Assembly (NCBI GenBank): GCA_963855995.1
Contig: OY979716.1
Coordinates: forward strand, 54,698,281-54,762,280
Reading direction: 5' to 3'
Source: Muricea muricata
Lineage: Eukaryota; Cnidaria; Anthozoa; Malacalcyonacea; Plexauridae
Length of the DNA stretch: 64,000 bases
Numbering within the stretch: the stretch's first letter is position 1; each line of letters starts with the position of its first letter. A model generated the notes under the pieces. It ran no database searches. It saw only the letters and a program-made list of their open reading frames with translations, and was not told where the DNA came from. The position numbers and the translations under genes were made by a program. This document shows, one piece after another, positions 1,076 through 55,400 of the stretch.

Positions 1076-1520
1076 TTATATTTGGGAAAAGTAACCATTG
1101 CTGTGATCAGGTTTTATATATGGAACTCCATCTCTACTGCCTACATAAAATTTATCATCATTCAGTAGATCATCTGGATAATAATCACGCTTGGAATAAG
1201 GACACTTAATTTCTATCAAACCTATCTGAGGGTTGTGTGCATTATCACAAATTACTCCATCTGGACTTGCTGCTAGGCAAAACAAACTGGGTTGAATAAC
1301 TAATCTAGTTTCCCTTAAACTTATCTGTTTCTGGTACTGATGCTTTAATATGTCAAGGTACTTTTCACGGGCAACTGGCTCATACATAACTCCATGGTTT
1401 AGGTTTTTTGAACAATGGGAGGTATATGTGACTGGTCCAATGGGTTTAATAGACTAGTAGCCAGTACCTTATGATTGTGTTTTCTAACAAATATGTTGTG
1501 TGCATTACTTGATGTTATTC
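1076..1520 (-). pseudogene. YqaJ-type nuclease gene, 3' half (split by insertion)
   Basis: On the minus strand the frame runs from the insertion point at 1520 to a stop at 1076. It opens with RITSSNAHNIF, matching the conserved R-x-x-RITAS entry motif of YqaJ/lambda-exonuclease-like nucleases. Further on are the metal-binding pieces SPDGVI (Asp) and GLIEIKCPYS (Glu-x-Lys). The frame is not a single uninterrupted ORF in this copy: a frame change lies near 1390-1400, between the PPIVQKT stretch and MYEPVAREKYLDIL. The other half lies at 8287-9258. Removing 1521-8280 and one TTATTC copy rejoins the gene in frame. The family serves in viral recombination and in ISL2EU transposons; its exact job in transposition is not known to me. 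Confidence 0.8.
1515..1520. repeat. Target-site duplication, left copy (TTATTC)
   Basis: TTATTC abuts the left TIR (TACGGTGGCC) and recurs at 8281-8286 right after the other TIR (GGCCACCGTA). Six base pairs fits the IS3EU superfamily. Removing the element with one copy restores the interrupted nuclease reading frame, which makes the call strong. Confidence 0.88.
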
Positions 1521-1862
1521 TACGGTGGCCCGTTAGGGACACACGAGTTCCATAGAAAATGTAAAGCGCTTCCTTAGAAAATGTATAGCTATTCCGTAGA
1601 AGATGCATAACGCTTCCATAGAAACGAATGTGCACAGGATTTTCCGTAGAAAATATGCAGTCTTTCCGTACAAAATGTATAACTGTTCGATAGAAATTGG
1701 GCAACGTTTCCGTAGAAAAAGTATAGTTCCGCCCTAGAATATGTGCTGCTGTTCCGTGGAAAATGTATAGCCCTTCCATACAAAGGGTATACGTCTTCCG
1801 TAGAAAGTTAAAACTAATGCGCGCGCAAGTCCATCATGTGTGTACTATATGAAGTATGGACT
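1521..1862. repeat. Left TIR (342 bp) with about twelve 22-bp subrepeats
   Basis: It starts TACGGTGGCCCGTTAGGGAC. Past the first 30 bases the TIR is a run of about twelve degenerate 22-bp units built on TTCCGTAGAAAATGTATA, one of them about 26-27 bp long. The inner end is a 40-bp block ending GAAGTATGGACT. Arrays of this kind in transposon ends often bind the transposase; that is inference here. Long open frames on both strands in this block are products of the 22-bp periodicity and not genes. Confidence 0.9.
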
Positions 1863-1913
1863 GAACAGCACACAATATCATATCACTGACAATTTGACAA
1901 TATCTTTGACAAT

Positions 1914-3696
1914 ATGGCAGTTTGTCAGCAATGTCTAGCAGAGTTTCCACCTGAAATCTATATAATTCAGTTCTGTCCTTCGTGTGGTTTTCAAAGAAAC
2001 GGTAAGATACCATTTAGTTACTTGATATTAATGCCGTATTATCAATTTTTTCAATATTAATGTAGATTCCTTTCTTTAATACTGCTTAGAGTTTATATGC
2101 AAAAACAATATAATATTGCATTACATATGACATGTTCCTTACCATTAAAAGGGGTTAATACAGTTCGTAATGCAAGCAAACGCTTTGTTTACATTTTGAA
2201 CTGCCATATTTGTAAAATATATAAATATAATACACTTGAAATTCTGACAATTGCCTACAGCAGAATTAATCAAAAACTGCAACCATGAAAAGTAGGAGTC
2301 AGAGAATTAAGACTGGAAAACATCTGTTGCTTCTGTAGTAATCTAGTATTGTGTACCCAGCGGCTGAGCATGATAGTAAAAATGGCAATTTGGTAAATTA
2401 TAGTCAATGATATATTAATATACTTTCATTTTAAATATATTTATACGAATTATCATTATAGCAGTGGATGTTGAACGTGAAGTAATAGAGCACTACTTTC
2501 ATCTTGGTTACAAATACAAACTGATAACTCAACTTCTTAAAAATATACATGGCATAGAAATGTCTGTTCGCACTTTGAAGAGACGTTTGTATGATTATCA
2601 ACTATTTCGTCGAAAAGAAAACGAGAATTTTGATGAAGAGCGTGTCAGAAATATTATAAGGCAAGAAATACAAGGTGCTGGATCTTTGGCTGGTTACAGA
2701 AAGATGTGGCACATCTTGCGTCTGAAACATCAACTACATGCACCTCGACAGCTTGTTGCAACGATTCTAAGAGAACTCGATCCAGAGGCCAGTACTATGA
2801 GAAGAATGAAAAGGTTGAGAAGGCGTCAATATGTCTCTCAAGGTCCCAATCAGTGTTGGCATATTGATGGTGTGTATGCAATATTTTATGTACATTAAAA
2901 GTACATGTAACTGGGACAGAATATTCTAAAAATTTCATTTTTTTAAACAGGTTATGACAAGCTCAAACCATTCGGTTTTCCCATCCATGGTGCTGTTGAT
3001 GGTTTCAGCCGGAAAGTTTTATGGTTGGAGGTTACAAGATCCAACAATGCTCCAGAAACCGTTGCTCAATTCTATTTAGATTGTGTGAGGCAAAACAGAG
3101 GGTGTCCTCTACAGACAAGAAGTGATTGTGGAACTGAAAATGGGGTTATTGCTGCTGCACAATGCTACTTTCGAACAAATGATAACAGTCCATTTCCTGG
3201 AGAACAAGCCCATATTTTTGGAACTTCTACACATAATCAGAGAATTGAAAACTGGTGGTCTCATTTAAAGAAGACTTGTACCAGCTGGTGGATTCAATTT
3301 TTTAAAGATTTAGTTGAGGAAAGACAATTAAACTTGGATCATGAATTTACTAGTGAATGCTTATGGTTTTGTTTTAATGGCATTCTTCAAAGTTCCCTTG
3401 ACGAAGCAAAGTTATACTGGAATACCCATTACATCAGACCGTCTCGCCATGAAACTGTGGCTGGGGTACCAAACATCCTATTTGATATTCCAGAGCAATT
3501 TGGAGGCTTTCACTTTCGTGTCCGAGTCCCTGCAGATAAGTTACAGGAAGTACAAGTTAGATACTCACAGGAAAACAACGAGAATGAATTTGAAGATTAT
3601 TTTGAGTACTTGATGGAATTTTATGAATTACAATATCCTTCCAATTATAATGAAGCTGTTCACGTATTTAATGTTTTAATGAGACATGCAAATTAA
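1914..3696 (+). CDS. Integrase-like transposase (IS3EU-like), three exons, intact
   Basis: Exons 1914-2001, 2462-2869 and 2951-3696 join through GT-AG introns (GTAAG/TATAG; GTGTG/AACAG), both phase 1, to give one uninterrupted frame of about 413 residues. Exon 1 encodes a small zinc ribbon: MAVCQQC followed by FCPSCG. Exon 2 carries a helix-turn-helix-like N-terminal region (SVRTLKRRLYDYQLFRRK). The rve-type catalytic core has first Asp in QCWHIDGYDK, second Asp in TRSDCGTENG and Glu in HNQRIENWWSHL, with about 40 residues between the second Asp and the Glu. ATG at 1914 was chosen because it lies 50 bp inside the TIR and brings in the zinc ribbon in frame. It should cut and join the element ends in the nucleus. 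No inactivating lesion is visible. The splice sites are inferred. Confidence 0.82.
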
Positions 3697-4646
3697 ACAC
3701 AATATGAAAAAGCAATTGTGAAAATTGAACAAAGAATATGTGTGTTTACATGCTTTATCAAAGCACTCACATAAGAGACTCAAATGAAAGAATAGACAAA
3801 ATAAAATGAATGGGTCATTTCAGAAAAGATATACATAACCCACCCACAGAGTAAATTTCAGCCATCCTGAGAGAATGGGGAGGGAACATATATCAAAATA
3901 GTCTTAAGCCTCTGTGGGATGTTTTGAGAAGGGGGGTGGTAGTAATGATTTGCAGGAGGAATGCAGAGAAACGTTGTTCCCTTACTATTTTTGCCTAGGG
4001 TATGCCGTTCCTCTGAGAAAAATCAAAGATAGGGAAATGCTGTTCCTGCGACAAAATTAATGTAAAAATAGACCAGACAGGTCCGTAAAAAATTTTTTGT
4101 CAACAACTGCTGAGTATGCCAGAGTTGTACGTTACTCTCTTTACCAAAGTTATATGTATTTGTAGCCTTCATCGAAATAATATCTGAATGTGGAATTTTT
4201 ACCAACTCTAAAACAAAGATGTGGAACTGTTAATTAATTTTACAAGCAGTGGCCAGGCCTAATTTACTTTCACAACTGGCCACATCCATTTGACTCTCAC
4301 ACTCATGGAAGCATTCCTCCACTTCTATGATCTGCAAATCATCACTGGGAGGGTGGTATTTTCAGTTTCCTCTGTGGGAGGGGTATGGATCTTCTCTGGA
4401 AGAACCCAATTATGTGCAACTGTGCACTGTATATAATATAATTAGTTGGAAAATAACTGTTATTTTATGCATTTGTAATCAAACTATGTGATATATTAGG
4501 TGGAGTAATGTAACCATAACAATAAGATCTATCTACAAGTATGGGATTTGAGTTCATAAGTAGTGCTTTCACTATTCATATCTTAAATTATGCAACAAAT
4601 AATAACAATAACATGACTGGCAATTGTCTGCCTATGTACAGTATAT
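3697..4646. other. Intergenic spacer between convergent element genes
   Basis: About 950 bases between the integrase stop and the HECT stop. It contains several G-rich patches and short open frames with no family resemblance. I see no gene, MITE or strong repeat here. Confidence 0.5.
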
Positions 4647-7600
4647 TTACACCAGTCCAAATCCATAATACTCATCCAGGGCATCGTCCAATGCTTTCTC
4701 AAAATCTTTGCTGTCACTGTAGTGCACTGGAAACATGATACTTGGATCACATGTAGAAACAGTTGGACGGCATCTACAGTTAGCTGGACAACCATGCTTG
4801 AACTGGAGCTTGATGTGTACTTCAGCACCAAGGGGTGTGATAGTATTACTTCCTGTTATAAATCGGTACAGCTTTGATAATGGATTTTCAGCTAAAAGTT
4901 AATTTATAAATTTCAGTAATATTTTTGTGTCATGCCGTATTAGTTGCAACAGTACATTGTTTGGGAGATTCATTAAATAATTAAAATTTGTACCTTCTCT
5001 TGTTTCCACATCTTGCACATAATCACAGTAAAACTTGTGGATATTTATTTCCTCTAATTTTTTGTTGCTGCCTTCTGGACTACCATCCACAATAATATTA
5101 TCCAGGATTTTATCAGCAGTTAACTGGAAGTGCGCAGCACCTTCTATGGTGAGCATTGTTGCCATAACCTCCCTGTGAATTTTGATTTGCTCCAACACTC
5201 CAAAGAGCATCAAACCAGACGTCAACTGGTCCATCATTGCTAACATGGGGTGTATCCCTCCAATCACTAGTGATCTGCAAAATACTGCCCGTGTGTTAGA
5301 TTCCCCCTATACCCAATGGACTGTAAAACATCAAGTGTGGTATCTTCAGACAACACAGCCTTCACTTCTTCATCAGTTGCACATTTTTTTATCTAAATGT
5401 TGAAGAATAAATCAATGTATACAGAGTTAAGGCACAGAATCACTATTTGTAATACATATTACACCTTCAACCCACTGGTGCCTAAGTTTCCTTTTTGAAG
5501 ACAATTATATATATAAATAATTTGATCAATGAATCAAAAGCTGTTGAAGTAAATGTACCTTATCAATTTCATTCTTGATTTTTATGTCTTCCACATGCTC
5601 CAACCAATTATACGAATGGATACTACATATCCCTCTTGCAACATACTCAAACACATCTTCAGATAGCAAGCAAGGAGCTGGTCCTTCTTGTGCAAGAGAT
5701 GATGCCATCAATTCACCAGCAACCTTGAATTCCTCATTGGCCAATGCTCGACTGTTTACCAAAGGATACCCATTTGAATTAAAAAGGGTAAACTTGATAT
5801 GGTGCAAGACATCTGCAAAACACAAAAGAAAGAACAATTATACACATGTAAAAATCTCACAACTTGTTGCAAGTCCGAAAACAAGCCGTCAACAAGTTGT
5901 GTTCGCACGGCTTGTTACAAGTTGTCAACAAGTTTGGAACAAGCTGTTAACAACTTGTAACAACCTTGTTGATATTATCAGACTTGTTACAAGGTTGTTC
6001 CAACAAGGCTGTTACAATCATGATATAACAATATTGCTACAACCTTGTGTTGTCAACCTTGTAACATTCTTGTTATATCAAGACCGTATCAGACTTGCTA
6101 CAACAACCTTGTAACAAGTCTGATAATGAAATCAAGCTTGTTACAAGTTAACAACTTGTTCCAAACTTGTTACAACAAACCAGGAACAAGCCGTGCAAAC
6201 ACAATTTGTTGACAACTTGTGAACAGACTTGTTACAACTTGTTTGCAGACTTGTAACAACTAGTGCATTTTTACGCGTGTACTACATTAAAACTAACCAA
6301 AAATTTTAACATCTTACTAAGGGCAACTGTATGTCTTTGCCAAATTAACACTAAAAAAAACATTTAAAAAACACTTACCTGTAAAGAACTCCCGCCTCGG
6401 CCCTCCTCCATCCACTGCTGGTTCACCTGAGAAGGTAATCTTAAGGATTCCCTCTGGCTTGAACCACTTTTTTCTCCTGGCATCCACATAATCACTAAAA
6501 CATTCACGTCTTCGGATGTTTACTCTGTTTCTGGTAGTTCGGATCACATTATGTTGAAGCTTTTCAACCACTCTCTTTCGAGCTTCCTCAGTCTGATGCA
6601 CAAAGTCATCCAAATCACCAGGGAGATCAATAATTTCTTCGATATCAGGATTATCTTCATTCTCATTTGGTTCAACATCACCAATTGGGTCTACCCAGCT
6701 CTCCGCACACATGTCTGCATGCTCTTCAATGTCAGTCCGGGAGAAATAACCAAGACATGTGGGACATTGATGTGGCACAAGATAAGTATCTATGCTATAT
6801 TTACTTGGTACTACTGATGAAGATTGTTGACCAGTGTTGATTGCTGTAGGTAGTTGGTTGTTTTTGGTGTTAGTTGTTCCACTCACTTGTACTTCCCAGA
6901 TGTTATTATGGCTAGTAGTGGGTAATGCAGTTGAGGATGATTGGTTCACTGGGTTCTTTACTATCATAGAACTTATCTCTTCAATTTCTGCATCATTGTC
7001 ACTGCTCTCGTCAGACATCGAATTTTCAAAGTCAGTTTCAGTGCAGAGCCAAAAGTACATTTTTGAGTATGGCAAAAGTAAATCCTCCTTGTACTCAGAT
7101 AAAACAAATGGCATACTACTCTTCGGCAAGTTTTTTACAATTGACAAATCATGGTACAATATGACATATTTCTGATTTTTATTAAATTGCTGATAGTGAC
7201 GGGCATGTTTTTCAATTGCCTTTTGCAAAAGAGTCTCGGCATTACTATGTGAAGAGACTGCTATTGTTATTGTCCTTGATTTGACTTTGGTCAATATCCC
7301 ATCACCATTCTTGTCTTGCACTATGCCGACTTTAACTTTTACCTCTACAGATTGTTTTGCTCGCTTTCCTCCAGTTTTGGGCTTAAATCTTGACGATCGA
7401 TCAGCCTCCTTTCTCTTGCGAAAGTCTTCCAATGATAGAGGTTCAGTTTGCTTAATTGTACTTGCACCTTGGTTTTTTCCACTAGACAAATGTTCCGATG
7501 GAACTTTATAAAGTAACATGAGATATAATATGAAATGTATTAAAAAGCATGTACATGTAAGTTACCACATTCTATCACACATTCACACAAACACACAATA

Positions 7601-7853
7601 TAAATGATGAACCAAATATAAAGAATATACACTCATAAACATGTACTAAATTGTATGTCAGTACATATTTTTACATCACATGGCAAGTAACCAAACCATT
7701 CATCTAATCATTATCTGATATCATTGTCTCATACATAAATTTACATAATTCTATATATTATTACGTACCGGGATTAGATGCCGAGCACACCCCACAGTTG
7801 TGGCAATATTTACTGTTATCAATTAGCTTTGTTCCGCAGTTTTTACAAAACAT
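4647..7853 (-). pseudogene. HECT E3 ubiquitin ligase with zinc ribbon and UBZ-like finger (one frameshift)
   Basis: Five exons on the minus strand: 7853-7769, 7503-6379, 5812-5559, 5392-4994 and 4891-4647, all with GT-AG borders and matching phases, total about 702 residues. Exon 1 is a zinc ribbon (MFCKNCG, then KYCHNCG). Exon 2 holds a basic region, a Ser/Asn-rich linker, a C2HC/UBZ-like finger (CPTCLGYFSRTDIEEHADMC) and the HECT start (GEPAVDGGGPRREFF). Exons 3-5 complete the HECT domain. The C-lobe has RPTVSTCDPSIMFP, where the TC cysteine would form the ubiquitin thioester, and ends YYGFGLV. Exon 4 is 399 nt instead of the 400 the phases require: one base is missing near 5270-5280, between YFAD and SLVIGG. 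Otherwise complete. It resembles G2E3-like proteins common in cnidarians and fish. A role in protecting the transposase or altering host repair is speculation. Confidence 0.78.
5840..6285. mobile_element. Palindromic MITE in HECT intron 2
   Basis: It begins TACACATGTAAAAATCTCAC and ends GCATTTTTACGCGTGTA, which are inverted copies. The interior is packed with CAACTTGTTAC/GTAACAAGTTG blocks that pair along its whole length, so a strand could fold into a long hairpin. There is no coding content. It sits wholly inside the intron (5813-6378) and should be removed by splicing. I recognise this CAACTTGTTGCAAG type as abundant in cnidarian genomes (recollection, not checked). Confidence 0.75.
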
Positions 7854-7938
7854 TTCGCCATCTTTTTGACGTCCAGACAACCAGGTCACAAAATAAATAG
7901 ATAAATGACTTTTTCGTGACCAGGCAAATAAACGTGCA

Positions 7939-8280
7939 AGTCCATACTTCATATAGTACACACATGATGGACTTGCGCGCGCATTAGTTTTAACTTTCTA
8001 CGGAAGACGTATACCCTTTGTATGGAAGGGCTATACATTTTCCACGGAACAGCAGCACATATTCTAGGGCGGAACTATACTTTTTCTACGGAAACGTTGC
8101 CCAATTTCTATCGAACAGTTATACATTTTGTACGGAAAGGCTGCATATTTTCTACGGAAAATCCTGTGCACATTCGTTTCTATGGAAGCGTTATGCATCT
8201 TCTACGGAATAGCTATACATTTTCTAAGGAAGCGCTTCACATTTTCTATGGAACTCGTGTGTCCCTAACGGGCCACCGTA
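7939..8280. repeat. Right TIR (342 bp) with 22-bp subrepeats
   Basis: Reverse complement of the left TIR with two substitutions seen by eye. It ends CTAACGGGCCACCGTA and is followed by the TTATTC duplication at 8281-8286. It has the same 22-bp subrepeat array as the left end. Confidence 0.9.
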
Positions 8281-8286
8281 TTATTC

Positions 8287-9258
8287 TCATCTTCCTTGAC
8301 TCCATCCATTTAGGATTATTGCATTGCCCAACAGTTTCTTTTTCAACTGATTGTTCATTAGAAATTTTAATGGTTTCCAAGTAAGACATCTCCACATTAG
8401 TCAAGTTCCAATCTGGCCTAAATTTAGTTTCCAGGATAAATGCAAGAGGTAAATCAATTTTAGATATATTAGGTGAATCTGGCTTTTGTGGACAATCTTC
8501 TCTGACGTTATACAAAACTTTGAAATTAAACTCAACTGGTTGTAACTGGTACGATAATAATGAACCCACAAGAAAATTTCCAAATTCAGTTTTCACAGAG
8601 CCTGCTGTTGAAACAGGTTGAATGCAATGAGCAAAACCAATGTTCTTGTCTATAGAGCTTAATGAATTCTGCAACTGTTTCGTTCTTTTTCCAAATTCGT
8701 GTTTGTTTAATTTAATCTCGGGTCGTATACTGTACATCTAATTCCTTTTTTTTTTTGAGACTGACTTTTGGACAGTTGTTTTCATAACAGGCTCTTTTAG
8801 ATGCAACGAGTTTTCTCCTGGAAGACCCCACTTTCGCAAGGCGCTTGTGCAAGCTTTTTCCTTCAGTACGGTCCTAAGACCTCTTAAAGAATAGTCAGCC
8901 AACTCAAATAGAATAGCCATGACATGATTAGAATAGCCACTTTGCCAGCTGGGCATGAACATGAACCACTTATAACAAGTCCAGTCTTACGATCGATCGT
9001 GGCGCTCACGAAACGCTGAACTTTTTTCATACTCGCCTGACACTTAACAACAAAATGATCTTTTGTTTTTGCAGTAAATACTGAATCCGATGACAAAAAT
9101 CGTTCTTCTTTAAGTTTTCTTCTTCGTATCATTGTTTTCATAACAGATTGATCTTTTTGCTTACCACTGGCATCTCGGTGTTTTTCGATTTCTTTAATCG
9201 TAAAAGTCGGTAAAAACTCCAAGGATTTTCCCCAATCTATTCCACACATGCTTTCCAC
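8287..9258 (-). pseudogene. YqaJ/SWIM nuclease gene, 5' half
   Basis: Starts near 9258 (MESMCGIDWGKSLEFL) and runs to the insertion site at 8287. The first part ends in a SWIM-like zinc motif SGSCSCPAG, followed after a one-base shift by SGYSNHVMAILFELADY. The expected third ligand Cys (GYCNHV) is Ser here. The next part, CTSALRKWGLPG, is typical of SWIM/YqaJ proteins of ISL2EU elements. A stop and a frame change follow near 8738. The last frame ends KWMESRKMRI at the insertion site and continues as RITSSNAHNIF at 1520. So the gene already had at least two lesions besides the insertion, making it an old host for a young insertion. Confidence 0.72.
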
Positions 9259-46666: not shown

Positions 46667-49600
46667 AGCAATTGTTCACTTGCCAAACCCCAACTTTTTG
46701 ACCAACTGAATCTCAAAGGAGATAGACTTCCCTACACCTTAAAAACTTGCGCAGGTACAACACAGCCCGAAGAAAGGCGTGCCAAGGGTTTGGTCATCAA
46801 GTCGCTTAATGGACATGTACAGCACCAACTACCGACCATAACGGAGTAGTATGACATACCCGATAGCAAAGATGAAATCCCCACCAGACGTGGCTAGAGC
46901 CCATCCCCACCTCCATCAGATTGCCGACCAGATTCCCAAGGTTCAAAGTAGTGTTGACATCCTCCTGTTGATTGGGAGGGATGCACCCCCACTTCACAAA
47001 GTGCGTGAGTCGAGAAATGGTAGGGGTAACTCACCATGGGCACAACGACTGGATCTTGGTTGGGTTATATTGGGCAACGCATGCTTGGACAGTGTACACA
47101 AACCCAACAACCATTCCACCTTCAAGACCCACATTCTGCAGGACGGGCGACCCTCCATCTTCGAGCCATGTTCAAACCTATTACACATTGAAGAACCAAC
47201 CTCTGCAAACAACCACTCGAGAAAGGAGTCATTCTTCCAAGGGAAATTCGAGGACGGACTTGCCCAGAATGTGTTTCAACAAAACAAGTTCGACAACAGG
47301 CCAGGACTATCCATCGAAGATCGGAAGTTCATCAACATTATGGATACAGGAAAGTCAAGCTGGGTAGCTCCTCTCCCCTTCAGAGATGAAGTCACACAGC
47401 TACCCAACAGTCGCGAAGAAGCCTACAGTCATCTAACATCCACCAGAAAAGCACTTGATCAGAAACCAGAGATGAAAGAGCATTACTTTGCCTTAATGTA
47501 AAAGATCCTAGACAACCAACATGCTGAACCTGTACCCTCGAGAGAGCTGGTCACGTCAAAACCATGTTGGTATTTACCTCATTTTGGGGTATATCATCCC
47601 CAAAAGCCTAATAAGATACATGTTGTCTTCGACTCGGCTGCTGAAACGAACGGCGTTTCCCTCAACAAGTTGCTGCTCTCCGGACCTGACCTCATGAACA
47701 GCTTGATAGGAGTTTTACTACGTTTTCGTCAGAGCCCCACAGCATTTATCGCTGACATTGAGCAGATGTTCCATTCGTTTATTGTCGAAGAGGAGCACCG
47801 CGACTATTTACGATTCTTGTGGTATGAGGACAACGACCCAGTCGGGAAAGTCATTGAATACAGAATGAAGGTACATCTATTCTGGAATACATCGTTGCCA
47901 GCGGTCGCAACACTTGGCTCAGAAAAACAGCACAAGTTGGGGAGAACCAATTTGGATCTGATGCCAGAGAGTTTGTTGAAAAAAATTTCTATGTGGATGA
48001 CGGACTTAAGTCCTTGCGAGGAAGTGAAGAGTCAATCGACTAACTTCAGCGAACACAAGCCATGTTGGCTACAGCGAACTTACGTCTTCATAAGATTGCT
48101 TCGAACGATGCGGAAGTGACCCAAGCATTACCCAAGATCTCGCACTGTGTGACCTTGACTTAAACAAGGAAATAATACCGGTTCAATGTTCATTGGAAGT
48201 GTACTGGGATCTCGAAATGGACACGTTCACATTCAGTCTCTCAGGAAAGCAAGCCATTCACAAGACGAGGAGTTTTGTCAGTTATCAATAGCCTTTTTGA
48301 CCCATTGGGAATAGCATCACCGGTGGTGATCCAAGAAAAGATGCTGCAGAGATCTATGTCCACCCATCTAAAGAATCGTCAGCTCGGAGGATGGGACGAA
48401 CCACTGCCAGACCAACATCATCCGGCCTGGAAAGAATGGTGTCAATCACTCTCAAGTCTGCAAGATCTCAAAATCCCGTGTTGCTACACCACAGCATCCC
48501 TTGCAGATGCCAACCCTACCGAGTTACATGAATTTTGTGATGCCTCCATCCACGGCATTGCTGCAGTTCGCTATTTAAAGTCTACACATCCAGATGGAAA
48601 GATTAACATGTCCTTTGTCTTTGGAAAGGCAAAACTAGCCCCATCCCATGCCACGACCATCCCTCGCCTGGAGTTATGTGCAGCTGTCCTCGCAATGGAA
48701 ATCGCCGAGTTATCAGAGAACAAGCCATTAAACCTGACTCAGTCACCTACTACTCGGACAGTAAAGTAGTCCTGGACGTAAACGAGCGGGAATAGTGATA
48801 ATTATCAGTCTCCAAAAGGAGGTTTTTGCTGAAGAGATCAAGTTGATCGAGAACGGAACGAAACTGCCCAAAGAAAGCCCTCTCGCGAAGCTAAGTCCGG
48901 TGATTGATTCAAACGGACTGTTAAGTGTCGGTGGGCGTCTCGAGTGTGCCGAGTTGTCGATTGAAGAGCGCCACCCAGTAATATTGCCTGGTTCCCATCA
49001 CATTACCAATCTTATAGTTCAGCACTGTCACAACGAAGTGAAACACCAAGGCTGACATTTCACGCGTGGTCTCGTCAGAGCGAAGGGCTACTGGATAATC
49101 GGTGGCAAGCGGCTCATAAACAGAGTAATTCATCTGTGCCTCAAGTGCAGAAAGTTACGAGAACAGCAAGTGCACCAAAAGATGGTAGACCTTCCAGTTC
49201 AACGCCTCACACCAGCCCCTCCCTTTACATACGTCGGCCTGGATGTCTTCAGGCCATGGCAAATAGCAACACGGCGTACCAGGGGAGGAGTCAAGTACAA
49301 TAAACGTTGGGCCATTATTTTCACCTGTTTGACTCTCAGAGCAATCCACATTGAGTTGACTGAGGCAATGGACACCTAGTTTCATCAACGCCCTCCATAG
49401 ATTCTTGGTGTTAAGAGGACCAGTAACCCAACTTCGTTTTGACTGCGGAACGAACTTTGTCAGCGCGTGAAACGAGTAGGAGCCGCGATGAAGGTGATGG
49501 ACAAGAAGCACATCGAAGCGTTTTTGGTTAGAGAAGGTTGCGAATGGGTCTTCAACCCTCCACACGCCTCTCACGCCGACGAAGTATGGGAGCACATGAT

Positions 49601-49991
49601 TGGAATCGCAAGAAGGATCTTAGACTCTATGTTGTCTGAGTTGGCGTCAAAACAACTAACACACGAAGTCCTCTCCACTCTAATGGCGAAAGTCACAGCA
49701 ATCGTCAACAATAGACCTTTAATACCGGTGTCAAATGATCCAGAGGCGCCTGAAATCCTAACTCCATCCACCTTGTTGACCCAGAAACCCTTGGTTCTAC
49801 TAAGGAGCAAAGAAGTAGTGAGAAATAGGTGGCCACTTGCTCGTGTGACGAAAGCCCAAGAAAGCGCAGGCGGAAAAGTTAGAAAGGTCGACCTACTGAT
49901 GGCAAAGGACGGAGTGAAACACACGTATAGCAGACCGGTCAACGAAGTTATTCTACTTAAGACCGTGGACGAACTTAACTCGGAACATTAA
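46667..49991 (+). pseudogene. BEL/Pao pol (protease, RT, RNase H, integrase)
   Basis: After the protease start come IDILLLIGRDAP and LGWVILGNAC. The reverse transcriptase begins VVFDSAAETNGVSLNKLLLS-type near 47625 and AFIADIEQMFHSFIVEEEHR; the YVDD box is present but in another frame near 47990. RNase H-like FVFGKAKLAPSHATTIPRLE lies near 48620. The integrase has a zinc-binding part (48930-49160), the DDE core with VGLDVF and EGCEWVFNPPHASHADEVWE, then the C-terminal domain ending LKTVDELNSEH at 49988. Stops and shifts near 47500, 47885, 48120, 48770, 49055 and 49380-49467 break it. It would copy RNA to DNA and insert it; inactive. Confidence 0.8.
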
Positions 49992-53799: not shown

Positions 53800-54105
53800 T
53801 TTTATTACATCATATAACCAAAATATCTGCTTTGGTTATTTGAAATAACAACATTCTCGTTTGCCGAATGAACTCTATTATATCAAATAACCAATTTGCG
53901 TTTTGTGCTGTATATGAAATAATAAACTTGACGCGTTTTTGTATTTTCGTTATATCAAATAACCAAGTTTGATGTCATGATTTAATTTGGTTATTTGAAA
54001 TAACCATTTTTGTGTTCATGATTTAATTTGGTTATATCAAATAACCACTTTTTGCGTTCATGATTTAATTTGGTTAAGTCAAACAACCAATTTTTTGTCG
54101 CATTA
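53800..54105. repeat. Tandem 41-42 bp repeats with palindromic AAATAACCA core
   Basis: About six units, each carrying TTTGGTTAT and ATAACCAA-type words in opposite orientation next to CATGATTTAATT. The first units are diverged and the last three nearly identical. The repeats overlap the 3' end of the MULE reading frame, giving a repeated peptide (WLFDLTKLNHE, WLFDITKLNHE), so the native stop has been replaced. Confidence 0.72.
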
Positions 54106-55400
54106 TATGGGAAGTAAAATGGTAATCCAGAACGTCCGTTGGTCCTTCGTCGAAGACCATGATGCCAACCTTCAACGTCATTGTTTGTTCTCACAAAAAA
54201 CGTAAAAACAGACCAGGTACTTGGAGACCAGATCTCATTTTCAATCCATGTGTTTTGAATGTACAAGACTAATTCTTGAAGAGTAGGAGTGGTTGCTAAA
54301 TTGGCCAAATGTTCAAACATTGCTGTGATGGTTTCATGTGAGAGGAAAGGTAATGCCATGAGTTTTCTAATGAAACTGTTGATCGCCTTGTTATCACTGT
54401 ACGCAGTTTGCAAACCGAGTTGCTGCACTTTTTTCCAAACTGCTTGTGTCCAGTGGAATAAACATTCTTTTACCTCAATTCCAGGCAGCACGAGGCGAAA
54501 GGCTTGCCAAAGTCCTTTTTCAAAATCTATAGTAATACGTTGGACATTCGGTGTTGGAATCAACTCAAGTACTTTCTTCAAGATTTTCTTGTAGTCTGAT
54601 TTCTTGCGACCATACATCAGCACGAACACCAGTGGAACCTGCTTCACTTGGTCTTCTTTGCAAACAAAGGCATTTATTGTGAACAGCTGAGAAAAGGGAT
54701 GTCGGCATAATTTAAATGTTCCATCAGGATACCATTGCTTGGCCCTAGCTAGTTGTGACAGCTGCTTGCTTGAGGCAAAAATCAGATGCCTTCTCTCATG
54801 GACACAAACATCCGCTCTCGAAAAGTCTTCAGGAATGTGTTTGTCTTCAAGAACAAACTCCAGATCATGAGGATCTTGTGGACACTTTGCTTGCCTCAAG
54901 TGATTTGCAGCCCGAATCAAATGTTCCACCTTTGGTAGTTTTGGGCATGGACCTTGCAGCATTTCATTTACAAGGACTTCATCAACGACTGCAGATGACG
55001 GACGGAAAAGGTTTTCTTCTGCCTTTCGTTTTATCGCCTTGACAACCTTGGTTGTGGCAGGAAGACCAACTCACCGGCATGATTGTGATCCAATCTAATA
55101 TGAAATTTATTCTCATCTTGTACCACTGACCCTGAGCAACGGTTGTTTTTTCCATGGATTGTGCATGTCCAATCAGTTGCAGTTCCTCTTCGTCGCTTGA
55201 CGGTGTAGCAGTAACCACGACTATCGAAAAGCTTCTTCTGGCCTCTTTCGGAGCAATTTTCAACAACTTCAAATGTTACAGTAGGTGGTTCTTCATCAAT
55301 CATCTCTTCTTCTGTCAGTGGTTCCAAAATTGAGGACTCTTCAATTGCGGTAGGTATCTCGTATGAAATACTGCTCATACCTACATATAATTTTAAAAAA
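54060..55400 (-). pseudogene. FLYWCH-MULE transposase (one frameshift)
   Basis: Begins near 55378 (MSSISYEIPTAIEESSI). An acidic stretch precedes a FLYWCH-type zinc finger (KKLFDSRGYCYTVKRR, WTCTIHGKNNRCSGSVV, HIRLDHNHAG). One frame change near 55050-55080 follows; then KVVKAIKRKAEENLFRPSS and a 323-residue open frame. The core has QWYPDGTFKLCRHPFSQLF (first Asp), ITIDFEKGLWQAFRLVLPG (second Asp), the CxxH-type ECLFHWTQAV and RTNNDVEGWHHGL (Glu), as in Mutator-like DDE transposases. About 440 residues in all, close to a full-length cnidarian MULE. It runs into 41-bp repeats at its end. Nearly intact; one base change from open, apart from the altered C terminus. Confidence 0.78.

Follow-up and report, generated by a model that had tools for sequence, protein, structure and literature searches.

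The available text of PMC10045372 describes IS3EU/GingerRoot DNA transposons as having TA..TA termini, usually a 6-bp target-site duplication (TSD), and an integrase-like DDE transposase. For fungal IS3EU elements, the accessible sections of PMC12730594 report ends of the form TAYGG..CCRTA and the carriage of alpha-kinase and TET/JBP genes, with the alpha-kinase gene opposite to the transposase; the TET/JBP dioxygenases are proposed there to allow escape from methylation silencing. We analysed a stretch of 64,000 nucleotides from Muricea muricata (contig OY979716.1, positions 54,698,281 to 54,762,280; the window) and describe a complete DNA transposon at window positions 1521-8280, with terminal inverted repeats (TIRs) at both ends. 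The element shares with IS3EU/GingerRoot, as portrayed in the available text (PMC10045372), the TA..TA ends, 6-bp TSD, and integrase-like DDE transposase, but differs in having a convergent second gene for a HECT ubiquitin ligase. From its sequence, this is very probably a young transposon with IS3EU hallmarks, two genes, and a conserved ligase.

Accessory enzyme genes are a likeness to the fungal elements, as is a second gene opposite to the transposase, whereas the enzymes differ: a kinase and a dioxygenase in fungi (PMC12730594), a ubiquitin ligase in an animal here. Going by these partial accounts, accessory enzymes are already known in the IS3EU superfamily, and the HECT ligase is the added feature here. 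Neither 'HECT' nor 'ubiquitin' occurs in the main texts of PMC10045372 and PMC12730594, and a literature search, with Repbase entries and most subscription papers outside it, returned no paper joining 'IS3EU' and 'HECT'.

An IS3EU-type element and its copies

Coordinates are window positions throughout, and the exon models of both genes were built on splice signals, frame, and homology. The six-exon HECT model comes from sister copy B.

1515..1520, unstranded: left TSD, TTATTC, with the same 6 bp at 8281-8286
1521..1862, plus strand: left TIR, 342 bp, opening TACGGTGGCCC
1914..2001, plus strand: transposase exon 1, CxxC..CxxC ribbon-like; Pfam zinc-ribbon matches weak, below cut-off
2462..2869, plus strand: transposase exon 2, first catalytic D, weak HTH_21
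2951..3696, plus strand: transposase exon 3, second D, E, and stop
4647..4891, minus strand: HECT exon 6, encoding the C-lobe and the Cys presumed to be the active-site residue (STC)
4994..5274, minus strand: HECT exon 5, copy B model, window coordinates by alignment
5302..5303, unstranded: breakpoint of a 236-bp deletion seen in the window copy and in none of its sisters, position uncertain to within a few bases
5303..5391, minus strand: HECT exon 4 remnant (134 nt in copy B)
5559..5812, minus strand: HECT exon 3
6379..7503, minus strand: HECT exon 2, with ubiquitin-like region, CPxC..H..C finger, and start of the N-lobe
7769..7853, minus strand: HECT exon 1, which encodes the zinc ribbon (its frame matches Zn_Ribbon_1 at 3.4e-7)
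7939..8280, minus strand: right TIR, 342 bp, closing with the reverse complement of TACGGTGGCCC
8281..8286, unstranded: right TSD, TTATTC

An earlier note on this stretch had described 342-bp TIRs with two differences, a TTATTC duplication, and an uninterrupted three-exon integrase with D, D, and E and about 40 residues between the last two; all of these features are confirmed. Its reading of recent activity by an IS3EU-type element is supported. The TIR arms at 1521-1862 and 7939-8280 differ at two positions, and TTATTC lies at both 1515-1520 and 8281-8286. The terminal letters TACGG..CCGTA, at 1521 and 8280, fit the TAYGG..CCRTA form of the fungal elements and recur in three complete elements of other families (L055, L060, and L076), and 6-bp TSDs flank these three, the four full copies of the window family, and a non-autonomous relative, copy E. 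The predicted transposase has 413 aa with no internal stops, matches the Pfam integrase core PF24764 at 1e-33, and carries its acidic residues at D165, D224, and E265, the last two separated by 40 residues. Ends, TSD, and transposase sequence together support placing the window element with IS3EU. The left TIR also holds 11 TTCCNTAGAA-like motifs (1548-1805), mostly spaced by 22 bp, which likely form a transposase-binding array.

A genome-wide DNA search (453 Mb, 74 contigs) identified four full copies of the window family: the window copy (copy A) and its sisters B (L009), C (L010), and D (L011), which are flanked by AATATG, TAAACT, and CAAATT, respectively. All four lie on the 124-Mb contig C1. 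The genome also has 51 Wnt-family matches, against none in any of 14 control genomes, in line with an animal source. Pairwise substitutions among them number 31-68 over the 6.7-7.0 kb compared, and the left and right TIRs of each copy differ at 2, 3, 2, and 6 of 342 positions; this low divergence is what supports their youth. The transposase frame is open in A, B, and C, and its last residues in D are shifted by a 4-bp insertion. Copy E (L012, C1:34642848-34644380) is 1,533 bp long, with the duplication ATATAC and TIRs 82-84% similar. A few short elements (L013-L016) have parts of the TIR in common.

The HECT ligase gene

Six exons, joined at in-phase splice signals, make up the HECT gene of copies B, C, and D, each of which has an open frame of 707 aa. 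It is predicted to encode a multidomain HECT-type E3 with a zinc ribbon, a ubiquitin-like region, a zinc finger, and a HECT domain. By profile or fold the protein falls in the HECT class: Pfam HECT (PF00632) scores 26.1 bits on the 707-aa protein (cut-off 23.9). Like the HECT-type E3 ligases HUWE1, RSP5/NEDD4, Smurf, and UBR5, the predicted protein of a relative has the N-lobe and C-lobe fold, with a Cys in the C-lobe motif; unlike them, the element's ligase is transposon-coded and has other N-terminal domains, with 14-19% identity in the structural matches listed. A Cys stands at the expected C-lobe position in 19/19 families aligned and, by its role in the family, is presumed to be the active-site residue. 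Open frames and this Cys are retained between HECT proteins of 17-49% identity.

Upstream of the HECT domain, Zn_Ribbon_1 is found at 3.4e-7 with the exon-1 frame alone versus 23.6 bits, below the cut-off of 25, on the whole protein. The exon-2 structure model has a mean pLDDT of 57.5, with residues ~70-180 modelled at high confidence; its best structural matches are ubiquitin-like folds (LC3, E 1.8e-4), the low whole-model TM limiting the prediction to fold class. The CPxC..H..C finger is present in 3/5 relatives aligned, and the remaining two frames stop before it. One relative is built differently: L058:3978-6380 (minus strand) is a single-exon, 801-aa ligase with a UBX domain (27 bits, cut-off 21) as well as HECT (49.1 bits).

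The window copy lacks 236 bp present in all three sisters, and with them the 3' portion of exon 4, the splice donor of that exon, and the greater part of intron 4. The modelled window frame closes ahead of the C-lobe, and therefore no full ligase is expected from this copy; its own predicted ligase is lost by deletion. The earlier note had read here a convergent five-exon gene needing one base to be open. Convergence stands, whereas the copy B model gives six exons, the zinc ribbon at 7769-7853 being the first, and the one-base error is ruled out by comparison with B, C, and D, because the apparent defect is the visible trace of the deletion. If still mobile, the window copy would depend on sister copies for ligase. 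Within HECT intron 2 lies an imperfect inverted repeat of TTGTTACAAG-like units (5859-6275), perhaps a nested small element, whose arms (5952-6047 and 6054-6149) are 81% complementary and whose length varies among copies.

Pairing of integrase and ligase across the genome

We searched the genome with transposase exon 3 (150 scored matches among 949 candidates) and with the HECT protein (86 matches, 63/737 candidates scored, grouped into 52 loci). Thirty-four of the 52 HECT loci have one of the 150 integrase matches no more than 10 kb away, with a chance expectation of ~0.7% of loci, and in 34/34 the HECT gene is on the opposite strand, downstream of the integrase, in convergent orientation. 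Counted from the integrase side, where pairing counts are lower bounds, a listed HECT lies within 10 kb of at least 9 of the best 10 integrases, at least 17 of the best 20, at least 21 of the best 30, and at least 35 of all 150; the four window-family copies are among the best 10. A C-lobe profile found HECT in 30/36 loci read, most with 1.5 kb of flank (L042 weakly; L060 is the same place as L035), and of the six loci without a match, two (L035 and L036) carry HECT slightly past the flank and L057 has HECT-like N-lobe pieces by eye. Between families, the C-lobe has a median dN/dS of 0.38 (24 pairs, dS 0.1-2). Two HECT pieces, C1:3096812-3097414 and C1:3217970-3218572, have no listed integrase near and a TIR-like match ~2 kb off each; they look like internally deleted relatives.

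Three related elements are complete, with TACGGTGGCCC ends and both genes inside: L055 (6,380 bp, duplication ATATTC), L060 (7,528 bp, TGTAAC), and L076:951-8896 (C1:39698250-39706195; 7,946 bp, GATATT). An end pair at L059 proved spurious, produced by a palindrome that lies within the TIR, and the true ends were recovered with more flank (L076); a search for element ends or duplications at L049, L050, L056, L057, and L058 found none. With both genes between TIRs and TSDs in four families, a host gene lying by chance next to a transposon is ruled out. Scans of viral contigs and of bacterial and archaeal genomes, which may omit near records, gave 16 and 13 pattern stretches, respectively, none a relative. 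Because many distant relatives in the genome keep the same pair, the HECT gene looks like machinery and not a chance passenger, and as read from these loci it is a standing part of this element group in the host genome. The pairing claimed by the earlier note thus extends to most diverged families read, and HECT-less copies are not the norm: 4/4 full copies carry both genes, the window copy with its HECT broken. For C-lobe constraint the picture is divided, clear between families and within the young family drawn from 9-17 changes (pN/pS 0.38-0.67), too few to judge.

The TIR of L076 has room for an ATG and the zinc-ribbon exon, which reads inward from both ends, identical at both, with the same phase-1 donor and with phase-1 acceptors ahead of both genes. 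If spliced as modelled, transposase and ligase of this family should have their first 25 residues in common. A DNA search placed the exon at 100% identity in ten places, forming five inverted pairs ~7.1 kb apart, plus one partial match; an integrase match is enclosed by 5/5 pairs and a listed HECT locus by 4/5. The L076 element has four further copies, on C1, C2, and C4. Between transposase and ligase ribbons, L076 matches at 29/29 positions and L060, in part, at 17/31; the four other families of the six compared have 7, 8, 12, and 14 matches versus a mean of 10.6 for cross-family pairs. Ribbon sharing as a general rule is unsupported, and a TIR-borne first exon common to both genes as the older state, seen in one family, is only suggested.

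Several observations weigh against a maintained ligase tied to the transposase. The HECT gene of the window copy is broken though its TIRs and transposase are intact, and no integrase on the list falls within 10 kb of 18/52 HECT loci; such loci may be remnants, host genes, or neighbours of integrases that were not listed. The C-lobe profile detected no HECT within the 1.5 kb flank at L039, L047, and L048. Against solved HECT sequences, the 707-aa protein matches weakly (best E 0.014), and Pfam HECT scores 20.3 bits in L056 (cut-off 23.9) and gives nothing at E 0.1 in L059. Constraint is looser on the C-lobe than on the integrase (0.38 versus 0.23), and the ribbons of the window family match at 8/30, not closer than between families.

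Possible roles of the ligase and the insertion site

Ligase and transposase have N-terminal modules of one kind. We tentatively favour, as the likeliest reading, that the ligase acts on the complex or proteins at the element's ends. The transposase would bind the repeat array in the TIRs, and the ligase would be recruited there partly through its zinc-ribbon N-terminus, a module that in the L076 family would be encoded by the very TIR exon that also supplies the transposase's ribbon. Once recruited, the ligase would ubiquitinate the transposase-DNA complex or proteins on the element ends, allowing transposition to be completed through dismantling of a spent complex or removal of silencing proteins. 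It is also possible, with a lower probability, that the ligase works in trans as a counter-defence, marking host silencing or repair factors for destruction anywhere, without being tied to the transposase complex in particular. The dioxygenases proposed to counter methylation silencing in the accessible account of fungal IS3EU (PMC12730594) would agree with this, as would a ligase that is conserved yet looser than the transposase, as an arms-race gene might be; however, in several families a zinc ribbon stands at the start of both proteins, and in one family the two ribbons are identical, which suggests that both proteins act at the same site.

Self-restraint, in which the ligase turns over the transposase and limits copy number, appears unlikely. 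In its favour, the full window-family copies found number just four, and the ligase keeps its convergent orientation and descends together with the transposase. But if it acts in trans, a ligase-less copy gains nothing; selection on the element could hardly maintain a brake, and the window copy lost its ligase yet has not amplified. That the HECT gene is a passenger, captured by chance and drifting unused, was already disfavoured and is very improbable: its breakage in the window copy and a within-family pN/pS that is not clearly low are set against convergence in every co-located case and the open frames and Cys kept across distant HECT proteins.

A fuller version of action at the ends, which we consider rather doubtful, would have a transposon with its own targeted ligase: the TIR-borne first exon would be ancestral, the common ribbon an address tag by which the two proteins meet at the ends, and the finished complex dismantled via ubiquitin, perhaps with p97. 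UBX domains are linked to a p97 role, and the one in the L058 ligase would therefore fit such disassembly. The phage Mu transposition complex is unfolded by ClpX, and a targeted ligase, if real, would be a ubiquitin-based counterpart. The usual picture of a DNA transposon is a single enzyme aided by its host; that many families have kept a ligase alongside the transposase suggests ubiquitin signalling in the element's life cycle, and the element offers a natural, testable system for the dismantling of a transposition complex or the lifting of silencing. In such genomes, a sizeable share of HECT-coding loci would then belong to transposons and not to the host, which bears on annotation and gene-family counts.

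The insertion splits a minus-strand open reading frame (1076-1514 and 8281-8737) that stays open across the joined flanks, and the next piece on that strand is a YqaJ recombinase-like exon (37.8 bits); for these reasons the element probably sits within a gene. Other mobile-element genes are abundant in the window, including one with a MULE transposase domain and one matching DUF5641, with loci at 53994-55070 (minus strand) and 49443-49988 (plus strand). DUF5641 is often found in BEL/Pao-type retroelements.
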